Shown here: piece after piece, positions 954 to 64,000 of the stretch
Layout: every line of letters begins with the position of its first letter
Position numbering within the stretch: position 1 is the stretch's first letter
Assembly (NCBI GenBank): GCA_012862575.1
Contig: BLSF01000102.1
Coordinates: 1 to 64,000 of the forward strand
Origin: Parietichytrium sp. I65-24A
Taxonomy: Eukaryota > Sar > Bigyra > Thraustochytrida > Thraustochytriidae
Length of the DNA: 64,000 nucleotides
Direction of reading: 5' to 3'
Made by a program: the position numbers and the translations under genes
The notes under the pieces: model-generated
Seen by the model: the letters and a program-made list of their open reading frames with translations, nothing else
The model's database searches: none
What the model was told of the DNA's origin: nothing

Positions 954-3900
954 ATGGGTTCCGCTCGGGCTCCGGCTGAGATGGAGATGGAGATGACTCC
1001 CAGCGATGAGATGGCCCCGGAGAATAATGCGAGCATTGTCATCTCTGTCACAGAAGAAAAGCCTGCGGCCGCCAAGGAGAAACAAAGTCCAGCGGCGCTG
1101 ACGCCAAAGGACAAGAAGAAGAGGAAGAAGAAGAGTGTGGAATGGCCACGTTACTGTGGACGGCTTCCTCCGTGGCTTACACCCGGGACTTTGGCGATAG
1201 TTCTCGTGGCCATGGCTATTGCATTTCTTGCGCTTGCGCTGTTGGTCGCATTTGAGCGCAGAAAAGTTGCGGCAAACCAGGATGATGTCTTTTACAGAAT
1301 TTCATTAGCTTACAGAACGGCGCTTCACAACCAGCTTGCGAGGCATATTCACAACATTGAGGCGCTTGGCTCTTTCACACTCGCATATGATTCCAAATAT
1401 TACGTGGAGGAGCCCTTTAGGTCTTTGTTCCAAGCTCTCGCCCTCAAATTGCGAAGTCAAATTTCAGGAGTGATCGCCTATGGTGTGGATGTGGTCCTCA
1501 ACGGCACCCAGGAGCACGAAGAGTTCCTCAACATCACGTCTGCTATTTGGAAGGAGTACTTCAATTCCACAGAGGACATCTTCCCTTTTCAAGGCTACAA
1601 TGGCACGCACATTACGGAAATAGACGTGCCAAGTGGTGTCTCCCTCGTCGTTGCGCAAAGAGCGCCGCTCCCGGCGAACGGAACGGCTTCATACCGTGCA
1701 GTAAACTTGGTTCACAGCGACATTGACGATTACAATCGCGCTTTCACTGAGGCAGTGCTCAAGGGGACGGTGAGGATCTCAAGAAGAATTAATGTCACCA
1801 CGAACGGCGAACAGTACGGCTGCGGACTGTTTGCGTCCGCCTCCCCCAACATGGCCGCCCCCAGCGAAGCAGAGCAAAACGGCTCGACTCCCGTTGGGAT
1901 TTATGGCTTCTTTGGTTTCCAGACTCTCTTGCGGAGTACTATCAACTATGTGGACTGGTCCATGGAGTCCAGCGACCGCGAGACGCTGCTGACAGACTTG
2001 ACGCTCGCAGCCAAATCAACTGCAGTGTACCTCTACGACATCACCGATAGCAAAAATACATACTTGCACGCCTATGACGTGTCGACTTCGAATGACATTC
2101 CGGAGGAAACGGCTAATATTGACGTTGCGCTGAACCCCGGGGACGATAGGCTCGTCAAGGCGTTAGATGTCAAAATTGGTGGCCGTGATTGGTTGCTCGT
2201 TACACATGGGTTCAGAACAATCACAGATACCACGCTCGTCTACTCTCTCACCATTGGCGTGTCGGTAGTCATCGTTTTCACTTTGGGCTCTGGGTTTTAC
2301 CTCATCCGGCGCAGGAGCAAGCATTCACAGGAACTCGCCATTGCGCGCATCAGGAAGGAGTCACAGAATCGCCTCATGAGCTACATGTGCCATGAGCTTC
2401 GAAAGTAAGTTAGGCACTCATTTTCTTTTCAACGTTCAACGTTGGGTTTCGCAGAGCAGCCTGCGACAAATGTTTGGATGCGATTTTGCTAACTTGTTCT
2501 CTCGACTTCAATCTCTCCGCTTCCGTGCTCCTCTCCGTTCGTGGTCCCTGCTCTGTTTGACTCACAGTCGTAAGTTTCTGCTCGCCTCTTCAGTTTGTTT
2601 AGTTTAACAATCCTTTCGCTGGTGCTGACCTAATTTGGCTCGTGGTTGGATTGAGCAGCCTTGCACAGCCTTTTGGCGCTTGTGGCGGAGCTCTCTGTGG
2701 TAGATGCTACTCAAAAGGCATTGGTGGACCAACTTGGTGCGATCTGTGCACACATGAGTTACCTTGTGAACGACTTTTTGGACTTTAGTAAGAGCCAGCT
2801 CACTGAGTTGAAGTTGGTCAAGCTTCCTACAAACATCTCCGACCTCGCACGCGACTGTTACAACCAGTTTCGAACGTTGTGCCGTAGCTCCGAGGTTGAG
2901 CTCGTGTTGAAGCTTGACCCAAATCTGGCAAATGCTACGTTTATGATTGACCCGCAAAGGTTACGCCAAGTTTTGAGTAATGGCATGAGCAATGCTGTCA
3001 AGGCTTGCGAACGGGGTCAGATCAGCTTAGAGGTGTACATAGAGGATAACAAAATCATGTACCGAGTTCTCGACGAAGGGCCAGGTCTGGGCAAGACTGA
3101 TCCGGATGAGCTTTTTGCAGAGTACAAACAATTGGAGAATGTTAAGGTTTCCCCAGGGACAGGACTTGGGCTTGGGATTTCACGTAGCATAATGCGGCTC
3201 ATGGGCGGCGATTGTACTCTTTCAAACCGCTCCGACAAAGACCACGGTGCTTGCTTCATGGCGTGGATGCCGTATTTGGAAACTTTGAAACCGATTCTGT
3301 CACCGATACAAACGGGTTCTCCATCCACAGGGTCCGTGTCCACAGAGTCGTTCAACTTGAGCGAAACCATCCACGTCGACCCTGGCGCCCTCGTAATCGG
3401 TGTGGATGAGTCGCTTTCGGCCGAGACTGTTATCGCCATTCGCGAAGCGTGCAAACCAATCGCAAATTGCACGGTGGCGGAGTTCAATGCCTCCCAAAAT
3501 TTGCAGGAGCACTGCATCTCCCCTCGGCCAGGCATTGTCTTCGTTGGATCTTTGGCTACCGTTAAGAGGAACCTGAACGTTTTCTTCGTTAAGGTTCTCC
3601 CCGAGTCCTTCTCCAACGCGAATAATGTTGATGATACCCCGTATTACAATGCTGGTTTCGACATGGCGGTGCGTGGAACAGCGCCAAAAGACATTCAGAA
3701 TTGTGTGTCCAATTTTTGGAATGAAACCGAGAGTTGCCTCAAGCTCTCCAAGAAGATTCGGGTAATAGCTGCAGAGGATGACGCTGTTGTTCACCACATC
3801 CTCGCAAAAACTGTGGCGAGAACCTTTCACCCGCAATCTGTGGTTTATTTCGATGGTGTTGATGTCATCCGTCACGTGAGCAGCGACGACTTTGTGCCGG

Positions 3901-4127
3901 ATTGCATTTTGTTGGATATCGTCATGAAATTCTCTCGTGGCGACGAAATACTTGTTCGCCTGCGAAGCGAGTTCAGCCTTACTTTGCCAATCTTAGCCGT
4001 GACGGGTAATTCAACTTCAGTGGACATTGAGAACTACCGCGAAATCGGCTTTGACGCCGTTCTCACCAAACCTTATAGTGCGAAGAGCCTCGAAAAGATC
4101 GTCTGTGACGTTGTGCTGTACAAATAA
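954..4127 (+). CDS. CHASE-domain hybrid histidine kinase (three coding exons)
   Basis: Membrane sensor kinase of the two-component type. Seen: coding exons 954-2404, 2568-2569 and 2659-4127, which join to 973 codons. A basic N-terminus is followed by TM1 (about residues 75-102), a CHASE-like extracellular region with several N-glycosylation sequons, and TM2 (about 425-450). The H-box CHELRNPLHSL has its His near residue 480. The HATPase has an N-box (NGMSNAVKA), DEGPGLG and GTGLGLGIS. A C-terminal receiver domain shows the acidic pair EDD, the phosphoacceptor Asp in LLDIVM and the Lys in LTKPY. Family knowledge: CHASE domains bind small ligands (cytokinins in plants), and hybrid kinases pass phosphate His to Asp and then to an HPt protein. 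The ligand here is unknown. The H-box crosses both introns: exon 1 ends inside the Asn codon and exon 3 begins inside the Pro codon, with two bases missing that a 2-nt exon supplies. Without it the frame fails. Confidence 0.9.
2568..2569 (+). other. Putative 2-nucleotide microexon (TC)
   Basis: The dinucleotide TC is preceded by a pyrimidine-containing tract ending in CACAG and followed directly by the strong donor GTAAGT. Exon 1 ends with CGA AA (GTAAGT follows at 2405) and exon 3 begins CC TTG CAC after TTGAGCAG. Inserting TC gives CGA AAT CCC TTG CAC, that is R-N-P-L-H, exactly the conserved histidine-kinase H-box. Direct joining of exon 1 to exon 3 is out of frame. The flanking introns are 163 and 89 bases. 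A longer exon from 2457 to 2569 also keeps the frame, but it would insert about 37 unrelated residues in the H-box. Confidence 0.75.
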
Positions 4128-4647: not shown

Positions 4648-4697
4648 CAAAGCGTTCCAGAGTTCCACAGGCAAAGTCGACGTACAAGAGATGAGAG
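4128..4697. other. Intergenic between kinase and LRR gene
   Basis: No gene seen. A possible AATAAA poly(A) signal overlaps the kinase stop codon at about 4123-4128. A short run of AATAGAG units (4614-4640) lies just upstream of the LRR gene start. Confidence 0.5.
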
Positions 4698-7600
4698 ATG
4701 GGCAAGTACGTGGACGTGTTGACGTGTGGCGAAGTGTCGAAATTTTGGTGTGCAGAGTCGTTGGGCGAAGTGCTTGAGGCGGTCGACCGGGAAGTGGCCT
4801 TGTGGTAAGTGAGACTAGCTGGGCACAGCCGAGGGAAAGGTAGACGCATTCGTTTACTCATGCATACTCATGTGCCTTCCATTTCACGCACAGGATCGAT
4901 GTGAGACTTAGGGTGAGGCTGGGGGGTGCGATTAAGCTTGCCGTGGCGCTTAATGGGAACAAAACGCTTCGACAGGTGTGGTGAGTCTTGCGTGTGTTTG
5001 AACTTGCTGGAGCAGAAGAGCTCCGCGAATGAGTGTGAAGTTTTGGTGCAGCACTGTGGATGCACACCAAAATTTCTCATCTTTGGTGTTCAAGGTTTGG
5101 TGGAAGAACTTTTCACATACAGACGATACTTTTTCGTTTCGCCTGACACGCGCTCTCTATCTTTGTGCACAGTCTACGTCATAGCCAAATCGGTGTTCTA
5201 GAAGCAGTCTCGCTCGCAGAGGCGCTCAAGGCGAACAACACGCTGACTTCGCTCGAGTGAGTTGCTTTGAAGATGGCTTCGGGTCTTGGAATTTACAGTT
5301 TGGTATTTTTCTAATCATTCTCGTACTTGATCGCGGACGGCTTCATGTCTTCTTGGTTAAGTAGTCTTTGTTTTAATAACATCAGCGCTGAAGGAGCATC
5401 AGCGATTGGTCACGCGTTGGAGAAGAACACTGCGCTGACTTGGTTGTCGTACGTGTGACTTGTGCACCGATTTGATTGGAAAATTATTAACCCTGCTAAA
5501 CTTTCTCGTTCTTTGTGGCTATCGATTCCATGTCCTTTGGACTGATTGAATAATAGCCTTCAATACAATGAAGCTAGCGATGGAGGAGCATCAACGATCG
5601 GTCGCGCATTGGAAAATAATACTGTGCTAACTTGGTTGTCGTACGTGTGACTTGGGCACAGGTTTGGCGAAAACGGTTTGTCCCTTGCCGAGTTTTGTTG
5701 TTCTTCGTTGCTGATGGCTTCATGTCTTTTTGATGCAAAAGTCTTCTTAGGAATAAAGTTGGCGACGAAGGAGTATCTTCGATCGGTCGCGCGCTGGAGA
5801 AGAACACTGCGCTCACCTCATTGGAGTACGTTTGACTTTGACTTTCGGTTTGCTGAGCTTTGTCGCTCTACGTGGCTGATGGTTTCATGTCATTTTTATG
5901 CAAAAGTCTTACAAAGAACATAGTTGGCAACGAAGGAGTATCTTTGATCAGTCACGCGCTGGAGAAGAACACTGCGCTCACCTCATTGGAGTACGCTTGA
6001 CTGTTTAGTAAGGGACTAAGCTTTCTCGGACTTGAATGGCTGACAGTTCATGCCCTCTTCACGAAATAGACTTGGACGCAACAAAATTAGCACTGAAGGA
6101 GCATCCGCGATCGGTCGCGCGTTGGAGAAGAACACTGCGCTCACCTCATTAAAGTACGCTTGATTCTGACACCGATTCGATCGAAGAGAATACTACCTTA
6201 CTCAGCTTCCTCGGACTTGATGGCTTACAATTCCATGTCCTCTTGACGACATAGACTTGGGTACAACGAAATTGATGATGAAGGAGCATCGGCGATTGGT
6301 CGCGCGTTGGAGAAGAACACTTCGCTCACTGTGTTGGAGTATGTGTGACTTTGATACAGGTTTGGTGGTTACCTTGCTGAGCTTTCTCGGACTGATGGCT
6401 GATGATTTCATGTCCTTTTGTAATGAAATAGTCTTGGCTCCAACAAGATTGGCGCTGAAGGAGCATCAGTAATCGGTTTCGCGTTGGAGAAGAACACTGC
6501 GCTGACTGGGTTGTTGTATGTGTGACTTTGATACATGTTTGCTGAATATTCTCGTTCCTGGCGGCTTACATATGATGTCTTTCTGATGGAATAGTCTTTG
6601 GAGGAACGACGTTGGTGCTGAAGGGGCATCAGCGATCGGTCGCGCCTTGGAGAAGAACACTGTGCTGACTAATTTGGAGTACGTGTGGCTTTGATACACG
6701 TTTGGTGGTTGCCATGCTAAGCTAAACTTTCTCGATCTTTGTGGCTAAAAATCTCTTGTCTTTTCTGAAAACAAACAGTATTTCTGAAAATGAAATTGGC
6801 AACGAAGGAGCATCTACGATCGGTCGCGCGTTGGAGAGGAATAATGCGCTCACTTCGTTGAAGTACGTGCGACTTGACCCCGGTTTGGCGAAAAATTCTA
6901 GTGCCATGCTAAACTTCGTCGTTCTTCGTGGCTGACGACTTATTGTTGAGTTAGTCTTGAAGGAAACGAAATTGATGATGAAGGAGCCTCAGCGATTGGT
7001 CGCGCGCTGGAGAAAGACACTGCACTGACTTCATTAAAGTACGTGTGACTTTGACACCGATTTGGCTGAACGCTTAGCGCCTTGCTAAATCTTCTCGCTT
7101 TCGTTGCTGACGATTTGATGTCCTTTTGACTGTTGGAACTAATAGCCTTGCTAATAATATATTTGGCGCTGAAGGAGGATCAGCGATCGGTCGCGCTTTA
7201 GAGATGAACACTGCATTGACTTCGTTGAAGTATGTTTGACGTTGACACCGGCTTTCTGCAAAGGCTTCGTACCTGTACCCTGAAAAACACGTTCTGATGC
7301 TGGTGCTTGGTAACTGACGACTCCATTTTTGTTTGGATGAAATAGTCTTGGGAAGAACGAGCTTGGCGCGGGAGGAGCAACTGCGATCGGGAGCGCGTTG
7401 GAGAAGAATACTACGCTGACATGCTTGGAGTACGTATGACTTTGTCTGGGTCTGGCGAGAGAGTTTATTACCTTGCTAGCCTAGACTTCCTCGTTCTTTG
7501 TGACTGACGAATCCATGTCTTTTTTATGGAATAGTCTTATGTGGAATGACATCGGCGCTGTGGGGGGATCAGCGATTGGTCGCGCTTTGGAGAAGAACAC

Positions 7601-7827
7601 GTCGCTGACTTGGTTGAAGTAAGTTTGACTTTGACACCGGCTATGTGCAAGACCTTGGTGCTCGCTGGAGCTTCTTGTTCTATATGGCTGACAATTGCGT
7701 GTCTTTTGTCTGAAATAGTCTCACCTCGAACTGCCTCTCTATTGAGGTAGAGTCAGCGATTGATTGCGCGTTGGAGAGCAACTCTGCCAAAGCGCTGACT
7801 GCATCGATTGAGAGACACGTGCTTTGA
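4698..7827 (+). CDS. Leucine-rich-repeat (RNI/NLRC3-like) protein, 17 exons, one repeat per exon
   Basis: I deduced the exons from conserved repeats plus GT-AG sites: 4698-4804, 4894-4980, 5173-5256, 5365-5448, 5557-5640, 5742-5825, 5907-5990, 6070-6153, 6255-6338, 6432-6515, 6595-6678, 6779-6862, 6955-7038, 7146-7229, 7346-7429, 7535-7618 and 7719-7827. They total 1479 nt (492 residues). Exons 3-16 are each exactly 84 bp, and every intron is phase 2. Each exon encodes one 28-residue ribonuclease-inhibitor-type LRR close to L..N.IG.EGASAIGRALEKNTALTSL. The N-terminal exon (MGKYVDVL...) resembles no domain I know; the last exon is degenerate. RNI-type LRRs form curved protein-binding solenoids; the partner is unknown. 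No signal peptide or transmembrane segment is seen, so it is probably intracellular. The introns resemble each other, showing growth by duplication of exon+intron units. The start ATG (4698) and exon 2 boundaries are less certain than the repeat exons. Confidence 0.88.
5173..7718 (+). repeat. Tandem exon+intron units (~165-200 bp) of the LRR gene
   Basis: Fourteen units each hold an 84-bp exon and an intron of about 80-115 bases. Introns typically start GTACGTGTGACTTTGA or close variants and end near TGATG(G)AAATAG, with the shared phrases CTTTCTCG and GGCTGA(T/C) inside. This shows tandem duplication of whole units rather than intron insertion into a finished coding repeat. Confidence 0.85.
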
Positions 7828-9080
7828 CATCGCTTTCGTGATAATCATCAGCTTATCAGTGCTCTGTTTTGTGACTTTGACACCATTGCACGTCCCAAGT
7901 CACAGCTGAACGTCGATTGCTTTGACCATCGAGATTTGATATGTATTTATCTCGGGCGCCTTAGCCTACCAATTCACTGTGCTGCGACGAATGAATGAGC
8001 CAAGCTTTTCGTATGTGTCACCAAAGAATGCAAAGGAGGAAACCACTCGCTTGTTCAGCGCCGGCAGTGAAGGTGGTGGCAGAGCTTGTGCACCTGTACA
8101 GTCTTGTCGGCCATATATCATCATGGCCCTTCGGGAATCAACCAATCAAACCTCCTTAACTTCTCGACCCAATCACGCGCCCGTTTCAACTACAGCAAAC
8201 GCACCGTGAGCGACCTTCCTCGAGCCTCTGAGTGTCCACCATAAATTTAAAAACATTCCACATCCAAGTACACATCCAGCGAGGGAGCCCAATGCCCTCG
8301 CCTCATCAACTTCACAACGTCAATCAATCCAATCCATAACACATCAACTCAATAAATCGACCCTCTTCCGCCCTCCTCTTCCATCACCTACCTCTTTCAC
8401 ACAACCCCCTTGTGCACACCTTCTCCGATCGACTAGCGCCACATATCATAAACTGCAGCAGTGGGGAACGGGGGATTCGAGTTAGTCAAGTTGGAAGTTT
8501 GACTCACAGTCTATCTATCTAAATTCTATTTATTTATCAGAGAGGGTAGAGAGGGACGCACACGCATATCGCATAGTTCAATGAACATACATGCATAGTT
8601 CGCACAGAGACAAGAGAGGGTAAATGAATTGGGTAAACATGTTAAAATGTGTGAACGATAGTGACGATAGTTGACGAAAGTGACGAGAGAGCAAGGCAGG
8701 CACGTGAGGCGATTGCGCGGGCACTTTTTGCTGCGGCAGCGGAATCTTGTGGGACTCGAAAACGCGGGCAGCGGTGCGTGGAGTGCGTGGAGTGCGTGGC
8801 ACTGGGACCTTCCTGGCACTTTGACGATCTTTGACCTTTGACAACCTTTGACCTTTAACATTTGACCTTCAACCTTTTGGCTCTTGGGCTCGTCCGGTGG
8901 CGACTTGCGCAGCGTTAGAGGGACAGCGGCCGCTGGTGCTGATTGGATTCTGTGCCGGTGCGTGCAGGCTCTCGGTTTGTTGAGCTATTGTGACGCTGGA
9001 GACACGCAGTTTGGGTGGGTACCGCGGTGTGTTGTTCCGGGAGGCTGTTGTGGGATCGAGAGAGTCGCTGAGGTGGAGAA
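7828..9080. other. Intergenic, upstream of LIM gene
   Basis: No gene supported. A cluster of TTTGACC/TTTGACG-type heptamers lies at 8818-8878, about 200 bases upstream of the LIM start. A copy of the dispersed motif TTGACTCACAGTC occurs at about 8499-8511. A (TCTA)n-like stretch lies at 8512-8535. Confidence 0.5.
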
Positions 9081-17261: not shown

Positions 17262-18288
17262 CCAAGTATACATTGATCATGCACATATTATCACATATTC
17301 AACGAATAACTTCCCACCCAAACCTCTTTCGAAACCCGTTCCCAATTCATCTTTTTGCCACATCCCCGTCTCCCAAACTACCTTGAAAGAACAACGAGTT
17401 CGAAGGCCGGTCTGTTCTGTGAAACCTCATAACCTGTAAATTGCATGTAATCTGAATTCTGAAACAATTAACCCGTTTTCGTTGGTACTTGGCTACAGCT
17501 CTGTTCTGAACTCGTCGGGCAAAGCTCAGTCAATGCGACGGAAAGGTGGCCATTCGACGTCGTCCATCTCTGTCCATTTCTCATGTCACAGTCCATCTCA
17601 ACCAACCTACTCATTTGTCAACTTGTCCAGTCAAAATGACTTTAAGAATTAAGAATGTTCAGAGAAATGAAACAACAGTATTAAAAAATAGAGAAATGAA
17701 ACAACAGCGAACGAAGAACAACAACACACCTCGCCAAATCCCGCATTCCACCGTGCCAGGGCATCCCAAATTTACTCCTAGATATCTCCCTCGCCTCCCG
17801 CGAACATAGAAGCCCACAGAAACCCTTGACACAAGCATAGCTACTGCCACCCACAGAACAGGGAACACTGGCGGCTGCGAACTTGCTCGCGCGTCTCAGT
17901 ACGGATCGGGACGTGGAAACAAAGCCATGCAAAAGCCTGTTCGTTTCTAATACAGAAGGTTCCAGCGAGAACTGACAGTGCACATTAGAGCATTCGTTTA
18001 TATATACGTAAGTTTGAGCAAACAGCTTTGGCAGCTTTTCCACAGAAGTGGCAGAGGCACTCCAAACAACAACAAACCAAAGACGAGTCGCTTCAAGTGC
18101 AGACCAGAAACGAGGAAAGCGCTGCGTGGAAGAGCGTTTGGGCTCAGCTCTTCAAGTTGAAGGTTGATTGACGATTGACGATTGACGTTTGACGATTGAC
18201 GTTTGGCCACTGCGTTGGTGCCAGCAAAGCTTCTCGCGGGTGAACGAACGAACGGTCTTTCTTTGCTCGCTCCTGCGCGGAAGACGAG
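17262..18288. other. Intergenic, upstream of glutaredoxin-DUF547 gene
   Basis: No gene supported. A GATTGAC(G) tandem repeat at 18163-18207 lies about 80 bases before the next ATG, and resembles the TTGAC cluster before the LIM gene. Confidence 0.5.
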
Positions 18289-19734
18289 ATGGGGCGCGTG
18301 ACAATCTTCACGATCGATGACTGCCCGTTCTGCGCCAAGGCGAAGGGCATCCTGAAGGCGAACAATGTGGAGTATTATGAGATCAACCTCTTTGATTACC
18401 CACAGAAAAGGTCTGACATGCTCAAAGCCGCCAAGCTTTTGACGGTGCCGCAAATCTTTTTTAATGAGAAACACATCGGAGGATCGAGTGATTTAGAGAA
18501 GCTTTCCAAGGAGGCAAACTTCACGCAGCTTCTTGAAGAAACTCTTGACGGCGAGGATCCCGCCACGGACCTCTTGCAGCGACCGAACGTGGACCCGGCT
18601 CCGCGTCCAAAGCCGAGCCCGCGCTCTGATGATCATGTCACAGTAGGGGAAAAGTCAGTTTCTGTTGCAGAGCTCATCATGGACATGGAGCGCGAGCTGG
18701 GCAAATCGTTCAAAGCAAGCGCTCTCGTAGCCATGATCCAAAAACGGTATGGCGCTCAGTCCAAGGACGAGGCGGTTAAGGCTGGAAAGCAGGTTGCAGA
18801 AATGGGGCTTATCCATGCTGCCAATAAGAAAGACTCTTTCCAAGGGGACGGGTCTTCTTTTGTGCTCGAGAGAGCAGAAAATAATACATGCTTGAACAAC
18901 TCTCGAGTGTGGAAAGACCGTGTGGACGAGCCTATGCTGGTTATCGCAAATCTCAAGAAGCAGCTCGGCTCCGTTGTGGGCAAGCATCGCGACGACGAGG
19001 GTCTGGTGGACTATGTAGAGGTGTCCAAGGACCCCGCGTTTTACGCTTTCGACGAGGCAACTTGTGAGCTCCAGGGCATTGACTTGGGGAGTATGGATGC
19101 CAAGACGAAGCTTGCTTTCGTGATAAACGTGTACAACACTGCCATCATTCATGCATTTGCCAAAATCGGAGCACCAAGCAGCGGCCTGCAACGTGCAAAG
19201 TTTTTTCCAGCTATCGGCTATAACATTGGTGGCAACTTTTACTCGTTTGATCAGATGGAAAATGGACTTTTGCGAGGCAATCGTGCAGGAGCTGGGTTGA
19301 GCCGCCACGGACCAATCCCGAACAACGACGCCAGGCTCAAATATATTCTCAAACAAGACGAGGTGGACAACCGGATCCACTTTGCGCTCAATTGCGGCGC
19401 CAAGTCCTGCCCTCCCGTGAAAAAATTCACCGCAGAGGCGATTGACGAGGAGTTGGACATTGTCGCCAGGGCGTTTCTCATGCAGGAAGAGAATTTTGGA
19501 ATCGAAGGCCATACCGTCAAGCTCTCCAAAATCCTGTCTTGGTACAGCAAGGACTTTGGTGATAGCAAAAGCGAGGTCGTATCCACTGTTTCCAAGTGGC
19601 TGACCGAGGAGAAGGCTGCCAAGGTTCGGGAGCTCATCGACTCGAACAAGCTTGACGTGTCGTACAATCACTACGACTGGTCGAATGACTCTAAGCGCAG
19701 CAAGTCCCCTCCGAGCGCATGCTGTATCATGTAG
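18289..19734 (+). CDS. Glutaredoxin-DEP-DUF547 fusion protein with C-terminal CaaX box
   Basis: A 481-residue intronless protein. Residues 1-75 form a glutaredoxin domain with the dithiol active site CPFC (12-15), the TVPQIF cis-Pro loop and IGG. A DEP-like module (about 120-195) follows. A DUF547 domain spans roughly 225-400 (KLAFVINVYNT, NIGGNFYS, DARLKYILK, RIHFALNCGAKSCPP). The protein ends ACCIM, a CaaX box (CCIM) expected to be farnesylated, so it probably sits on a membrane. Glutaredoxins reduce disulfides or glutathionylated proteins, DEP domains help recruit proteins to membranes, and DUF547 has no settled function. The extra Cys before the CaaX Cys could be palmitoylated. The combination suggests a membrane-tethered redox regulator; that role is inferred. 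Confidence 0.88.
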   Translation: MGRVTIFTIDDCPFCAKAKGILKANNVEYYEINLFDYPQKRSDMLKAAKLLTVPQIFFNEKHIGGSSDLEKLSKEANFTQLLEETLDGEDPATDLLQRPNVDPAPRPKPSPRSDDHVTVGEKSVSVAELIMDMERELGKSFKASALVAMIQKRYGAQSKDEAVKAGKQVAEMGLIHAANKKDSFQGDGSSFVLERAENNTCLNNSRVWKDRVDEPMLVIANLKKQLGSVVGKHRDDEGLVDYVEVSKDPAFYAFDEATCELQGIDLGSMDAKTKLAFVINVYNTAIIHAFAKIGAPSSGLQRAKFFPAIGYNIGGNFYSFDQMENGLLRGNRAGAGLSRHGPIPNNDARLKYILKQDEVDNRIHFALNCGAKSCPPVKKFTAEAIDEELDIVARAFLMQEENFGIEGHTVKLSKILSWYSKDFGDSKSEVVSTVSKWLTEEKAAKVRELIDSNKLDVSYNHYDWSNDSKRSKSPPSACCIM

Positions 19735-58768: not shown

Positions 58769-61700
58769 CTAACTTGATCCAGGAAAAGACTTCTGTGGCA
58801 CTGAAGACGATGGTGGCTTCGAGCCCGCTTTCACAGGCATTGCTTGCTTGGCTGAGGCTTCTGACTTTGGCTTTGATTGCGTGGCGGCGGTACTGTTATT
58901 CTTGCTCTTGGACGAAGATGCGGATGACGTAGATGATGACCTAGAGCTCCGTCCTTTCGTAGCTCCGGTCGAAACAACCTTGGAAGTTGTGCTTCCTTTT
59001 TTCGCCCCAGTACCTGGTGCGCGCTTCAAATCTTCCTTGCTTTTGTCGGTTTTTGCGTGCTCTTGCCGCTGCCTCTCTCTCCTTTTTGCCTCACTCTGCT
59101 TTGTGGTATCATTGAGTGCATTCTGAAATTCGACAAAGAAGCTATGCAAGGTTCGAAACAGCACCTCAGACGTCGTCGAAGTGTCCTCGCACAAGTACTC
59201 GAGGGTCTGCTTAAAAAGATCCTCAGTACTGGAGCCCAGCGACCGCAAATCCTCCAGTGATTCCTGGCAAACCTTGTAGAACCGCGTCAGCTCCAGAACA
59301 AAGTATTGGTCATCCTCCGTCATTTTACTCCTCTTCTCTTCATCGGATACGACATTCGCCCAATACTTGTGCTCAGTCTCGATGATGCGTAAGCCTGCCT
59401 CCAAGACCTGAAGCTGTGTCACCGCATTCGTCAAAGAGATATTTGCAGCTTCTCGAATAGAATCAGTATCGGATTTGACAAAGGTAAGAATGTCTCTCTC
59501 GCGAGACTGAATTAACCACACGAGATAGTGAAGAGCGGTAGTGTTGGACGCAAAACTCTTGACATCCCGAAGTTTGTTTAGCGCGTCCAAATGGAAACCC
59601 GGAGCGACTCTTGCCTTTGGTGCGTCTGGCCCCTCATTCATAAAATTACCCATCGCAAGAACGATCTCCATCATTCTTCGAAACTTCTTGCTTTCGAGAA
59701 GATCTTTACATGCTTTTTTGATGTCCTCAAAGTCTCCCCTGGCATCCTCGTATGCCTCATCAAACTTCATCCTGTAGAGCAAGCAATTTGTGCGCTGTTT
59801 GTAGCGAGGGATAGACATGAGTTCTAGGAAGTAAAATTCCCCTTTTCCAAGGATTTCGCGCGGTCCATCGTAGGCAGATAAAATCTTTTCTTCCTCCGGA
59901 GTTGGCGCGAGGCCCAGAACTTGGCGGACGTCTTCTGTATTAACGTCTTCGGGAATGTTCAGGTTGAAAAGACATCTTTTTATCAGAGCTGCGTGAACGC
60001 CAAGACCAAACATTCTGGACAGGACGATAGCGATGTTGTTGGAACGCTGGGGCTCCAATAACTGCTTCGTCTCCTCCTTCACTTTCTTTTTCTTCGGGGC
60101 GGATCCAGTGGCACCTTCTGTCTTTGCTCGCTCAGCCTTCTCTTTCGCTTTTTGGCGCTCCTGCTCACTGACATTGACGGTAAATAGTGCGGTCATTTCC
60201 TTTATTTCGCGCTGCTCAAATATGTATGCTTTTGACTTGTTCCAAATCGCATTTTCAACCTTGTCCAACGTGTTATTATTTACCTTTCTCCAGTGAAGCT
60301 TTCGCCGCACAATCTTATCCGGCTTCTTCTCTGGAGGCTTGGGCTTGGGGGGTGCAGCTCCAGCTACGCCAGAGCCCTTTCCGCCAGCTTTTGTTGGTGC
60401 AGGCGACTCCGGATCCATGTCCAGATACTTTGGGTCCAGCCCTTTCGCCATCATTTTTGCTTCTATCGCACCGCGAGGCACCTTGACCGCTAGCATTTTT
60501 ATAAACGGTCCGTAATCCTTGTCATCCTTAAGCTTTACAACGGGGCCATTCCCTCCAGCATTCCCGCCAGCCTGCGGAAGCTCGATCATTGTTGCCTCTG
60601 GGTCCATGTCGAGGTATTTCACGTCAAGCCCTTTTGCAATCATCTTAGCTTCCACTGCTCCGCGAGGCACCTTGACCGCAAGCATTTTCAAGAATGGGGA
60701 GTAGTCAGGATGATCCTTGAGCTTCACCTTTTGCGCCGCAGCAGCACCAGAGCCGTCGCCGGAAGGGTTGAGCTCAATCAGGGTATTTTCAGGATCCATG
60801 TCCAAATATTTAACGTCAAGTCCTTTAGCACGCATTTTGACCTCGATAGCACCGCGAGGAACTTTCACGGCGAGCATTTTGAGAAAAGGGCTGTAGTCTG
60901 GGTGCTCACCAAGCTTGACCTTCTCGCTAGCGGCAGCCTCGGCCGCTTCAGAGGCAGGCTTTAGCTCTATCATTGTCGTCTCTGGATCCATGTCAAGGTA
61001 CTTGGGATCCAAACCCTCTGCGGTCATTTTCCCCTCCACTGCGCCGCGAGGCACTTTGACAGCAATCATCTTGAGGAAAGGACGGTAGGCTGGATGATCC
61101 TTCAACTTGACCTTTTCAGCTGCAGCGGATTTCCCAGCACCATCTTGCGGCGGGGCCGGTTGCTCCGGGTCGAAGTCTAAATACTTTGGATCCAGACCCT
61201 CGGAAATCATTTTTGCTTCGATCGCTCCTCGAGGCACTTTGACAGCAAGCATTTTGAAGAACGGGGCGTACCTCTCATCATCTTTAAGTTTCACCACGGA
61301 GCCACTTCGTTTGCTATCTGTTTTTGAATCGTCCGCGATTATCGTTGTTTCCGGGTCCATGTCCAGATACTTTGGGTCAAGACCCTTTGACTCCATCTTG
61401 ATCACGATTGCCCCACGAGGGACCTTCACAGAGAGCATTTTCAGAAATGGGGCATAGTCGGGGTGATCTTTGAGCTTGACCCCTGTTGTTTGTCCAGCAT
61501 CACTTGCTTTTGACGTGGGAGAAGGGCCCTCGGGATCCATGTCCAATATCGCGGGGTCTAATTCTTGCTGCAACATCTTATTTATGACTGCCTGGCGCGG
61601 AACTCGGACAGCCAGCATCTTGAAAAATTGCCCGTAAGTAGGATCGTCCTTTAATTTGACGACATCGGCTTCTGGTGCCGCTTCCGTGGATACGCCTTTG

Positions 61701-63508
61701 CTCTCCATCAACTCCCTTGGTGTCGGGGCATTAGGATCACAGTCCAAATATTTCGGATCAAGGCCCTTTTCAGCCATTTTGTTTTCCACTGCTTGCCGGG
61801 GAACTCTCACTGCTAGCATTTTCAGAAAAGGCCCGTATTCTGGGTGGTCTTTGAAAGGCGGCGATTGCTCTTCTTCGGATCCTATCTTGGCGTTTGTGGA
61901 AGATGGAGGCGAAGCAAGCTCCGCGGGTAGGGGGTCATCCGGATTTAGATCAAGATACTTGATATCCAAGCCCTCCTTCTGCATTTTTAGTTCGACGGCA
62001 GGCCGGGGCACCCCAACTCCGAGCATCTTAAAGAAGGGGCCATATTGTTCATGTTGTCGAATCGTTTTTGGAGAGGCACTGCCCGATTGATTCTCACTCC
62101 CGGCAGCACTAGACGCCTCGGAAGCTTTGGGCTGATTTGGCGATGGGCTGTTTGGATCCTTGTCCAAAAATGTTGGATCTAGGCCTTCTTGAAGCATCTT
62201 ATTCTCGATTGCCTGACGAGGTACCTTGACAGCCATCATTTTAAAGAACCGGCCATAGGCTGGATCATCTTTGAGTGCAACGGGCGAGACAATCGTGCCT
62301 TTCGGTATGGCCTCCCCGAAAACGACCCCGGGATCAATTCCCTTTGCCCGCAGTAATTCCTCTAGCTCTGCCTTGGAGAAGGTTTTCTCTTTCTCCTCCT
62401 CCTCCTCCTCCTCCTTGCCACTGGCATTCTCCGCTATTTGTTTACCACTAGGTTGCGCTTCTGCTCTGGGCGGCACCAACACAGGATTAGCATTCGCAGC
62501 GGCCGGCGGTTGTGGTGGAGGCGCAGCAGCTTGAGGCGGAGACGCGTTTGACTTTTCAAGTTCCTGCTCGGAAGCTGCAGAGGGAAAACCGCTCGCATTT
62601 ACCTTGGCCCTCGCCATGGCTTCCGCAGCCTGCTTGGCTGCCTCCTGGTCATGGGCATGCTCCACTCTGAGAGCCACATTTTCATGTAAAAGCATCTCGC
62701 ACTCTGCCATTTTCGAAGAGATCTCCTCTGCCAATTTTTGGGTTTCTTGTTCAAGTATCACAGCAGTCTGCAATAGTTGAAATGCACGTACTTTGGCACG
62801 ATCCACGAGCCTGTGCAGTACACTCTTGATGATTATCGCACCAGCTCTTTGCAAGGGATTCACGACGCCATCTGGTTTGGTATTTACTTCCAAAGTCGCT
62901 TCGGCTACCCGCTCCTGCTCGTCTTCGCTTTTGCTCTCGCTCGAATCACCAATCGCTGTAGTGCCGCCCGCGCTCTCTCTCCTTTTGCCCCCAAGCAGCA
63001 TGTCCGCCAGCGTAATTTGCTCCATCTTGCCTGTGTCGAGATTCTTTACCCAGAAAAGTTCCTCCTCATCGTCGTCGCCCTCTCCCTCGCCGACATTGCC
63101 TGCCACCTGTCTTTCGTCACTCTTGGCGGCTGGAGGAATATGCTGGCGCAGTCCCACGTGCACTGCCGAGCCCTTTGGTGACAAAACTGGTGACGCGCTT
63201 CTCGCCATCTCCCCATTTGTCTTGGGCACTTGGGCGGACATGGGCTCATGATTTGAGCCCAAAGGAGCGGAAGGGGGCGCTCGAGGCCCGGAAAATGCTC
63301 TCTCGCGGCGTACGGGAGAGCCAGGAGCATCACCATCCGGAGACTGCGGTGCAGTGTGGCGTCGAGGCAGCGGGTGTGCCGCAGCGTATTCCGTGGGCTG
63401 AGGACTAGATGTGGCGGAGTCGTCCGAAGAGAGCGGCGCTGGAGAAGAGGCGTCTTGGCTGCTAGTATCTTCTGGACGACGCGACTCAAGGAGTCGTCTG
63501 ACAAACAT
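58769..63508 (-). CDS. Formin (FH2) with ten CCDC53/WASHC3-like repeats
   Basis: 1579 residues from ATG 63508 (MFVRRLLES); no ATG lies further upstream in frame. Order: a Ser/Pro-rich N-terminus; a coiled-coil-like helix (about 238-305); a proline/alanine-rich stretch (APPPQPPAAAN); ten tandem modules (about residues 411-1030) of the form Y.PF.KMLAVKVPRGA(I/V)E.KM...GLDPKYLDMDPE; a short proline patch (PPKPKPPEKKP); an FH2 domain (about 1060-1440; RRKLHWRKVNNN, RSNNIAIVLSRM, MKFDEAYED, MEIVLAMGNFMNEG, TTALHYLVWLIQ); and a basic Ser-rich tail. FH2 dimers nucleate and elongate unbranched actin. The module resembles the core of WASH-complex subunit CCDC53/WASHC3 and replaces the long FH1 expected for profilin-actin delivery. 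The FH2 has a Lys/Glu-rich insertion after the lasso/linker region. Confidence 0.93.
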   Translation of the reverse strand: MFVRRLLESRRPEDTSSQDASSPAPLSSDDSATSSPQPTEYAAAHPLPRRHTAPQSPDGDAPGSPVRRERAFSGPRAPPSAPLGSNHEPMSAQVPKTNGEMARSASPVLSPKGSAVHVGLRQHIPPAAKSDERQVAGNVGEGEGDDDEEELFWVKNLDTGKMEQITLADMLLGGKRRESAGGTTAIGDSSESKSEDEQERVAEATLEVNTKPDGVVNPLQRAGAIIIKSVLHRLVDRAKVRAFQLLQTAVILEQETQKLAEEISSKMAECEMLLHENVALRVEHAHDQEAAKQAAEAMARAKVNASGFPSAASEQELEKSNASPPQAAAPPPQPPAAANANPVLVPPRAEAQPSGKQIAENASGKEEEEEEEKEKTFSKAELEELLRAKGIDPGVVFGEAIPKGTIVSPVALKDDPAYGRFFKMMAVKVPRQAIENKMLQEGLDPTFLDKDPNSPSPNQPKASEASSAAGSENQSGSASPKTIRQHEQYGPFFKMLGVGVPRPAVELKMQKEGLDIKYLDLNPDDPLPAELASPPSSTNAKIGSEEEQSPPFKDHPEYGPFLKMLAVRVPRQAVENKMAEKGLDPKYLDCDPNAPTPRELMESKGVSTEAAPEADVVKLKDDPTYGQFFKMLAVRVPRQAVINKMLQQELDPAILDMDPEGPSPTSKASDAGQTTGVKLKDHPDYAPFLKMLSVKVPRGAIVIKMESKGLDPKYLDMDPETTIIADDSKTDSKRSGSVVKLKDDERYAPFFKMLAVKVPRGAIEAKMISEGLDPKYLDFDPEQPAPPQDGAGKSAAAEKVKLKDHPAYRPFLKMIAVKVPRGAVEGKMTAEGLDPKYLDMDPETTMIELKPASEAAEAAASEKVKLGEHPDYSPFLKMLAVKVPRGAIEVKMRAKGLDVKYLDMDPENTLIELNPSGDGSGAAAAQKVKLKDHPDYSPFLKMLAVKVPRGAVEAKMIAKGLDVKYLDMDPEATMIELPQAGGNAGGNGPVVKLKDDKDYGPFIKMLAVKVPRGAIEAKMMAKGLDPKYLDMDPESPAPTKAGGKGSGVAGAAPPKPKPPEKKPDKIVRRKLHWRKVNNNTLDKVENAIWNKSKAYIFEQREIKEMTALFTVNVSEQERQKAKEKAERAKTEGATGSAPKKKKVKEETKQLLEPQRSNNIAIVLSRMFGLGVHAALIKRCLFNLNIPEDVNTEDVRQVLGLAPTPEEEKILSAYDGPREILGKGEFYFLELMSIPRYKQRTNCLLYRMKFDEAYEDARGDFEDIKKACKDLLESKKFRRMMEIVLAMGNFMNEGPDAPKARVAPGFHLDALNKLRDVKSFASNTTALHYLVWLIQSRERDILTFVKSDTDSIREAANISLTNAVTQLQVLEAGLRIIETEHKYWANVVSDEEKRSKMTEDDQYFVLELTRFYKVCQESLEDLRSLGSSTEDLFKQTLEYLCEDTSTTSEVLFRTLHSFFVEFQNALNDTTKQSEAKRRERQRQEHAKTDKSKEDLKRAPGTGAKKGSTTSKVVSTGATKGRSSRSSSTSSASSSKSKNNSTAATQSKPKSEASAKQAMPVKAGSKPPSSSVPQKSFPGSS
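60420..62290 (-). repeat. Ten tandem ~60-residue CCDC53-like coding repeats
   Basis: Each unit has a DDP/DHP.Y opening, a (F/L)KM core, V.VPR(Q/G)A, KM, GLD..(Y/F)LD and DP. The first four keep VPR-Q/P and differ more from each other. The last six use VPRGA and are more alike, suggesting recent unit duplication toward the FH2 side. Spacers between units are variable, Pro/Ser/Gly-rich. Confidence 0.85.
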
Positions 63509-64000
63509 GGTGCACCTGCGCACTCAGACTCACGCGCTGCACAGGCTCATGGCCACCGGCAAGTCGCTATTTCCTGTGCTTTCTCGTCGCTCCTCGACGT
63601 TCGCTGCGCGTCGCTGCCCGACAGGATCCTCCTTTGGTCTCTGCCACTCTTAGCTGTTCAGCTGTCGCTCCTTATCGCCGCAATATGTTGTCGCCGTATG
63701 TTTCAGTGGGTCGCCGTATGTATCATGTATCAGCTGCGCCTCTCCGTCCCTTCCTTGTCGTTCGTTCGATGTGTCAGTTGGTCAGTTGTGTCGATTAGTT
63801 GTTCATCGCCGTTCGTTCGCTATTACGCTTTGGATTAGCTCGCGATGTACCTTAGCTTAGTGAGTGATGCTATGGAGACTCTAAGAGTGCAGGTGGGCTG
63901 GCCAACTCGCTGTATTCGCTGCTCGAAAATGACCAGAATGACCAGGTTCCATCTCTTCTGTAGGAGGGCATCAGGGGCATGGAGCACTTAAAAGGTTCTG
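63509..64000. other. 5' flank of formin gene to window end
   Basis: No gene supported. The short open frames here lack domains. Partial repeats of TCGCCGTATGT occur at 63690-63721. Confidence 0.5.

Follow-up and report, generated by a model that had tools for sequence, protein, structure and literature searches.

The window analysed here (the whole stretch of DNA, positions 1 to 64,000 of contig C102, in a searched genome of 42.5 Mb and 172 contigs whose spliced genes mark it as eukaryotic) carries a gene for a hybrid histidine kinase at 954-4127 on the forward strand. The open reading frame listing breaks this gene into two open stretches, 954-2408, which has no Pfam match, and 2655-4127, which has a HATPase_c domain and a receiver. 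In the spliced model described below, HisKA (41.9 bits), HATPase_c (66.2) and Response_reg (45.2) all exceed their cut-offs within one protein, and this combination assigns it to the hybrid histidine kinases. Elsewhere in the window, 58772-63523 on the reverse strand holds a 1584-aa open frame in which an FH2 (formin) domain is accompanied by ten stretches that match the CCDC53 model (WASH complex); these ten matches may be a low-complexity artefact. A single open frame at 18244-19731 (forward strand) contains Glutaredoxin and DUF547 domains as well as a sub-threshold match to DEP. The features of the kinase gene and of its two closest relatives in the genome are as follows.

954..2404, forward strand: exon 1, 1451 nt; start codon, sensor region and first half of the H-box (CAT GAG CTT CGA AA)
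2405..2567, forward strand: predicted intron 1, 163 nt, GTAAGT...CACAG; donor position common to C78 and C43
2568..2569, forward strand: predicted exon 2, TC, 2 nt; completes the Asn codon and opens the Pro codon of HELRNPLHSL
2570..2658, forward strand: predicted intron 2, 89 nt, GTAAGTTTCTGC...GAGCAG
2659..4127, forward strand: exon 3, 1469 nt; remainder of HisKA, HATPase_c, receiver domain and stop codon
2667..2668, forward strand: alternative AG, 10 nt into exon 3; counterpart in-frame AG in C78 and C43
C78:11516-14751, forward strand: paralogue, AG/CC/GTAAGT, HELRNPLHSL
C43:350834-347746, reverse strand: paralogue, AG/CC/GTAAGT, HELRNPLHSL

Exon 1 ends ...CGAAA/GTAAGT at 2404/2405, two bases into a codon, and exon 3 begins at 2659, preceded by TTGAGCAG. 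When the two are joined directly, the frame is off by two and a stop follows after 526 codons. The dinucleotide TC at 2568-2569 is flanked by TTTGACTCACAG and GTAAGTTT, and its inclusion gives one open frame with a 2922-nt CDS (stop included) that encodes 973 aa and reads HELRNPLHSL at the junction. A preliminary description of this DNA had proposed that the frame needs exactly two more bases and that this TC, lying between CACAG and GTAAGT, completes the motif; the junctions and the translation bear this out. The description also cautioned that the acceptor lies within TTGACTCACAGTC, a motif found outside the gene. It does recur at 8499, but the caveat is weak, given that 2040 different 14-mers recur on the forward strand of the window. 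The acceptors of the paralogues have a different upstream sequence from that of the window gene, and CACAGTCGTAAGT occurs once in the genome, at the window gene.

The paralogues were found by a protein search of the same genome with the window kinase. Both copies cover nearly the whole protein, and both are interrupted near query residue 485. The junctions are GAGAAA/GTAAGTTA...TTTTCATAG/CC/GTAAGTTTCCGC...CTGACCACAG/CACTGCATAGC in C78 and GAGAAA/GTACGTTC...CTTGACAG/CC/GTAAGTTGCTGC...GTGAAATAG/CCTTACATAGT in C43, and inclusion of CC gives AAC CCN ... (N-P-L-H-S-L). All three genes are thus cut at the same codon, each with a 2-nt exon bounded by canonical AG and GT sites and by two introns of workable size (163 and 89 nt in the window gene, 112 and 94 in C78, 90 and 77 in C43). 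These are the only introns visible in the coding part; the other coding exons are single open frames of full length, with gene starts placed at the most upstream in-frame ATG. With the 2-nt exon, HisKA scores 41.9, 40.1 and 43.5 bits against a cut-off of 26.9. The preliminary description had suggested a comparison with the orthologous gene in related species; made here with two diverged paralogues in the same genome, it comes out in favour of the exon, since both need it and both have it, at the same codon.

The divergence among the three genes is extensive. Protein identity is 42-44% of aligned residues, and identity at four-fold degenerate sites is 0.24, 0.31 and 0.28, compared with 0.25 expected at saturation; neutral sites are saturated. 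Alignment of the intron interiors is no better than for shuffled sequence, with scores as high in 42 to 187 of 200 shuffles, and the same comparison for whole introns, splice sites included, gives 14 to 151 of 200. Despite these unalignable interiors, AG-YC-GTAAGT is retained in all three genes, and the 5′ end of intron 2 shares the pattern GTAAGTT[TG]C[TC]GC. A 21-residue block, ESQNRLMSYMCHELRNPLHSL, is identical in the three proteins; 18 of its 63 bases vary, all synonymously, and six of these fall in codons 16-20 (N-P-L-H-S). The first base of the 2-nt exon, at the wobble position of the Asn codon, varies (T, C and C), and the second, which begins the Pro codon, is invariant. No other 2-nt exon of the same context was found in the 42.5 Mb: AGYCGTAAGTTKYYGC, a 16-base pattern derived from the three genes, occurs in exactly those three places, a count that by construction says only that this context has no fourth copy. 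The exon thus appears conserved in three of three paralogues within one genome.

The chance expectation was estimated from 20,000 dinucleotide shuffles of each interval (window, C78 and C43, in that order below). A bare AG-NN-GT is frequent in such shuffles (8084, 5148 and 5105 of 20,000), so the case for the exon rests on the strong donor and on the paralogues. AG-NN-GTRAGT, with both introns of 40 nt or more, arose in 44, 20 and 27 shuffles (0.10-0.22% per gene) and AG[TC]CGTAAGT in only 2, 1 and 2. For C78 and C43, which were found after the fact, the joint probability for AG-NN-GTRAGT alone is about 1.4e-6. It is very unlikely that the pattern arose by chance or through sequencing error, and since two old sister genes carry the same 2-nt exon, it is almost certainly genuine and not a coincidence. 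We infer the splicing from the need for frame, the splice-site dinucleotides and conservation: the gene very probably encodes its kinase in coding exons of 1451, 2 and 1469 nt, with the 2-nt exon spliced into the mRNA.

The motif completed by this exon can be compared with that of homologues, of which 238 were collected: the best 120 of 3010 from a whole-protein search, plus 118 new ones from the best 120 of 3705 found with an exon-3 profile. HExRxP is present in 237 of the 238 homologues listed, and is wholly absent from one (P0125); in 6 of the 237 a different HExR-like word, without the Pro, comes first in the protein. The exon-3 query begins after the Pro, and among the matches listed first with it, 117 of 118 have HExRxP. 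Of the 237 listed homologues that carry the motif, 235 place a Thr immediately ahead of the Pro and 2 an Asn. HELRNPLHSL, previously called a textbook H-box, is accordingly so in its HExRxP framework but not in its Asn, and is a less usual form. Within the same genome, a kinase at C8 has HEIRNPV in unbroken sequence, and the H-box is likewise continuous in the histidine kinase loci C66, C39 and C1; a motif search of loci C19, C122, C16 and C18 did not find it. A HisKA search of the unspliced genome returned six loci, and the three microexon genes were missed because their introns cut the H-box. Among the best 120 matches of the whole-protein and of the exon-3 search, many of them unnamed, no eukaryotic relative was recognised, and the named homologues among the matches listed are prokaryotic. 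A search of genome contigs gave 37 loci, all with prokaryote titles, and a search of viral contigs for relatives of the kinase gave none.

The sensor half (954-2404 in the window) is common to the window gene, C78 and C43, and two hydrophobic stretches (putative membrane segments, by eye) flank the sensor region in exon 1. Pfam found no recognised sensor domain such as CHASE or Cache in exon 1 at E <= 0.001; up to E 10 there are two matches only, both below cut-off. Of 7997 candidates scored against an exon-1 profile, none reached E <= 0.001. With no relative detected outside the three paralogues by these Pfam and profile searches, the sensor half is possibly a lineage-specific sensor domain.

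Other ways of splicing the region were enumerated as in-frame models with the exon-1 donor fixed, canonical sites, at most one internal exon and introns of at least 40 nt. There are 96, 35 and 16 such models in the three genes, and by exon length and acceptor only three are common to all: the 2-nt exon, a single intron with its acceptor at the AG 10 nt into exon 3 (the +10 acceptor), and a 6-nt exon. The last of these, which uses a weaker donor and the +10 acceptor, was rejected; it gives HELRNRN-L, also without the Pro. Also rejected were other exon-1 donors combined with a single intron (window gene only), all of which cut HELRN or earlier.

The +10 acceptor raises the idea that two forms are made, in addition to and compatible with the 2-nt exon, and that the two introns were kept around the exon through ancient duplications as a splicing switch at the catalytic motif. 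Under this idea, the product of two-step splicing would be an active kinase and that of the +10 acceptor an in-frame protein lacking PLHS (a kinase-dead receptor, its inactivity being assumed), while skipping would yield a truncated sensor, in a regulated manner. The arithmetic is suggestive: 2 nt and 10 nt make 12 nt, so the frame is kept, and the +10 AG is in frame in all three genes, while skipping of the exon or retention of either intron would end the protein at most about 50 residues from the H-box histidine in each of them. The +10 AG is, however, already accounted for by the Ser codon in which it lies, which is of the AGY type (of 18 all-Ser columns, 5 are AGY in all three genes). We regard the switch as unlikely, both as a pair of regulated products and as the reason for which the introns were kept.

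A rival reading, not considered in the preliminary description, dispenses with the microexon altogether: one canonical intron (GTAAGT...GCACAG) would run from 2405 to the AG that ends at 2668. It is in frame in three of three paralogues and would probably be the choice of an automatic annotator. The resulting H-box, HELRN-LLALV, is four residues shorter, with PLHS deleted. HisKA then drops to 24.5, 20.1 and 23.4 bits, below the 26.9 cut-off, and the Pro kept in 237 of the 238 homologues listed is lost; a narrow pattern for the PLHS-deleted form matched none of the homologues listed. The bases that such an intron discards vary only synonymously for P-L-H-S, that is, they evolve as codons, and AG-YC-GTAAGT, conserved in three diverged intervals, is left unexplained. 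This reading as the sole form is very unlikely, though the +10 intron is possible as a minor isoform. The 2-nt exon appears to be what both the frame and the conserved H-box call for, whereas the single intron would satisfy the frame and lose the motif.

Two further alternatives are barely credible; the preliminary description had named the longer exon and the indel error. A longer internal exon such as 2457-2569 (113 nt) has canonical sites and keeps the frame in the window gene, and C78 permits a 71-nt exon to the same donor, also in frame, but the former puts 37 foreign residues into the H-box helix of the window gene and C43 has no in-frame model of this kind. An assembly or sequencing indel, or a pseudogene, is a general possibility with nothing further in its favour; like a different junction pair, it fits poorly with the same arrangement at three separate loci, and the flanking frames are fully open.

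With the 2-nt exon as the preferred reading, the two bases would end the Asn codon and begin the Pro codon, beside the phospho-accepting histidine. Mechanistically, intron definition is the likeliest scenario, the two short introns being taken out in separate steps. Each intron (77-163 nt in the three genes) would be recognised across itself. Removal would be sequential because the AG, bound by U2AF, and the GTAAGT, bound by U1, are only two bases apart, too close for both factors to be in place at once. Whichever splice came first would leave either a normal donor (AAAYC/GTAAGT) or a normal acceptor (AG/YC followed by exon 3). The donor exon-side consensus is CAG; the exon side of the second donor is poor, GTC or GCC instead. 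The second donor itself is GTAAGTT in all three genes (one first donor is GTACGT), and this invariance probably compensates for the poor exon-side match. CTNAC-like sites, as candidate branch points, lie 47-79 nt from the intron 1 acceptor in all three genes, and nearer (7 and 11 nt) in two. The arrangement would be older than the duplications and since then maintained by selection on the H-box. The neighbouring gene at 4690-7800 encodes leucine-rich repeats (RNI-like by eye), with exons of about one repeat each and introns of roughly 80-120 nt (by eye), and many of its donors are GTACGT followed by GTGACTTTGA or similar. The 13 donor-like sites in it that matched a search expression comprise 9 GTACGT or GTACGC, 3 GTATGT and 1 GTAAGT, a loose comparison in that the search expression excluded other donors, for example GTGAGT.

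Placozoans reportedly have a single-base exon in mitochondrial cox1. Among nuclear genes, the available text of PMC4674806 describes a 1-nt exon in Arabidopsis APC11, for which stepwise intron definition was proposed, and that of PMC8831610 reports such exons across land plants, in APC11 and in VPS55, with a conserved GTRAGT as the second donor in VPS55. Like the kinase exon, these are smaller than a codon, lie between two introns and were missed by annotation, and the conserved GTRAGT of the VPS55 second donor is matched in the kinase genes. They differ in being 1 nt long, in plants and proven by RNA-seq and RT-PCR, whereas the kinase exons are 2 nt, occur in three paralogues and are known from sequence alone. 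A 1-nt exon in Fusarium CYP621A is reported from 20 orthologues in different species of the genus, two with transcript evidence (PMC12940212, as available). There too, homology led to a sub-codon exon without which a conserved enzyme-family motif is incomplete, but it is 1 nt long and known from orthologues across species rather than from paralogues in one genome. The 9-nt microexon of potato invertase, whose flanking introns are removed in two steps, the second first (as described in PMC4674806), resembles the order proposed for the kinases, in which removal of the second intron first is plausible; that exon is longer and has experiments behind it. Zero-nucleotide recursive splice sites also place AG beside GT and are removed stepwise, according to the accessible part of PMC13149111. 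The kinase site, with two coding bases between AG and GT, is ruled out as one of these, for the two bases are kept in the predicted mRNA, and the introns are short.

The preliminary description held that such an exon challenges exon-definition models, which is fair, yet the point had already been made for the 1-nt exon of APC11 (PMC4674806, in the text available). No description of a 2-nt nuclear exon was found in the open-access literature as far as its text could be searched, and two papers listed as mentioning a 2-nt or 2-bp exon deal, in the text available, with other matters. One may figure in the plant survey (PMC8831610), the available text of which counts microexons of 1-15 nt and mentions those under 3 nt; work on Creolimax microexons covers, in its available part, 3-15 nt only. 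Sub-codon exons of 1 nt are thus already published, and the kinase exon is a case of rare size whose special strength is its conservation among paralogues.

Kinases of this kind would be easily missed, or predicted with an incomplete H-box, because a search of the unspliced genome for HisKA skips all three genes here, which shows how a domain search can overlook genes. The three genes would also offer natural substrates on which to test which intron is removed first and how one site is shared between U1 and U2AF. If the exon is true, a spliceosome can handle a 2-nt exon reliably over long times, in three paralogues with saturated neutral sites.
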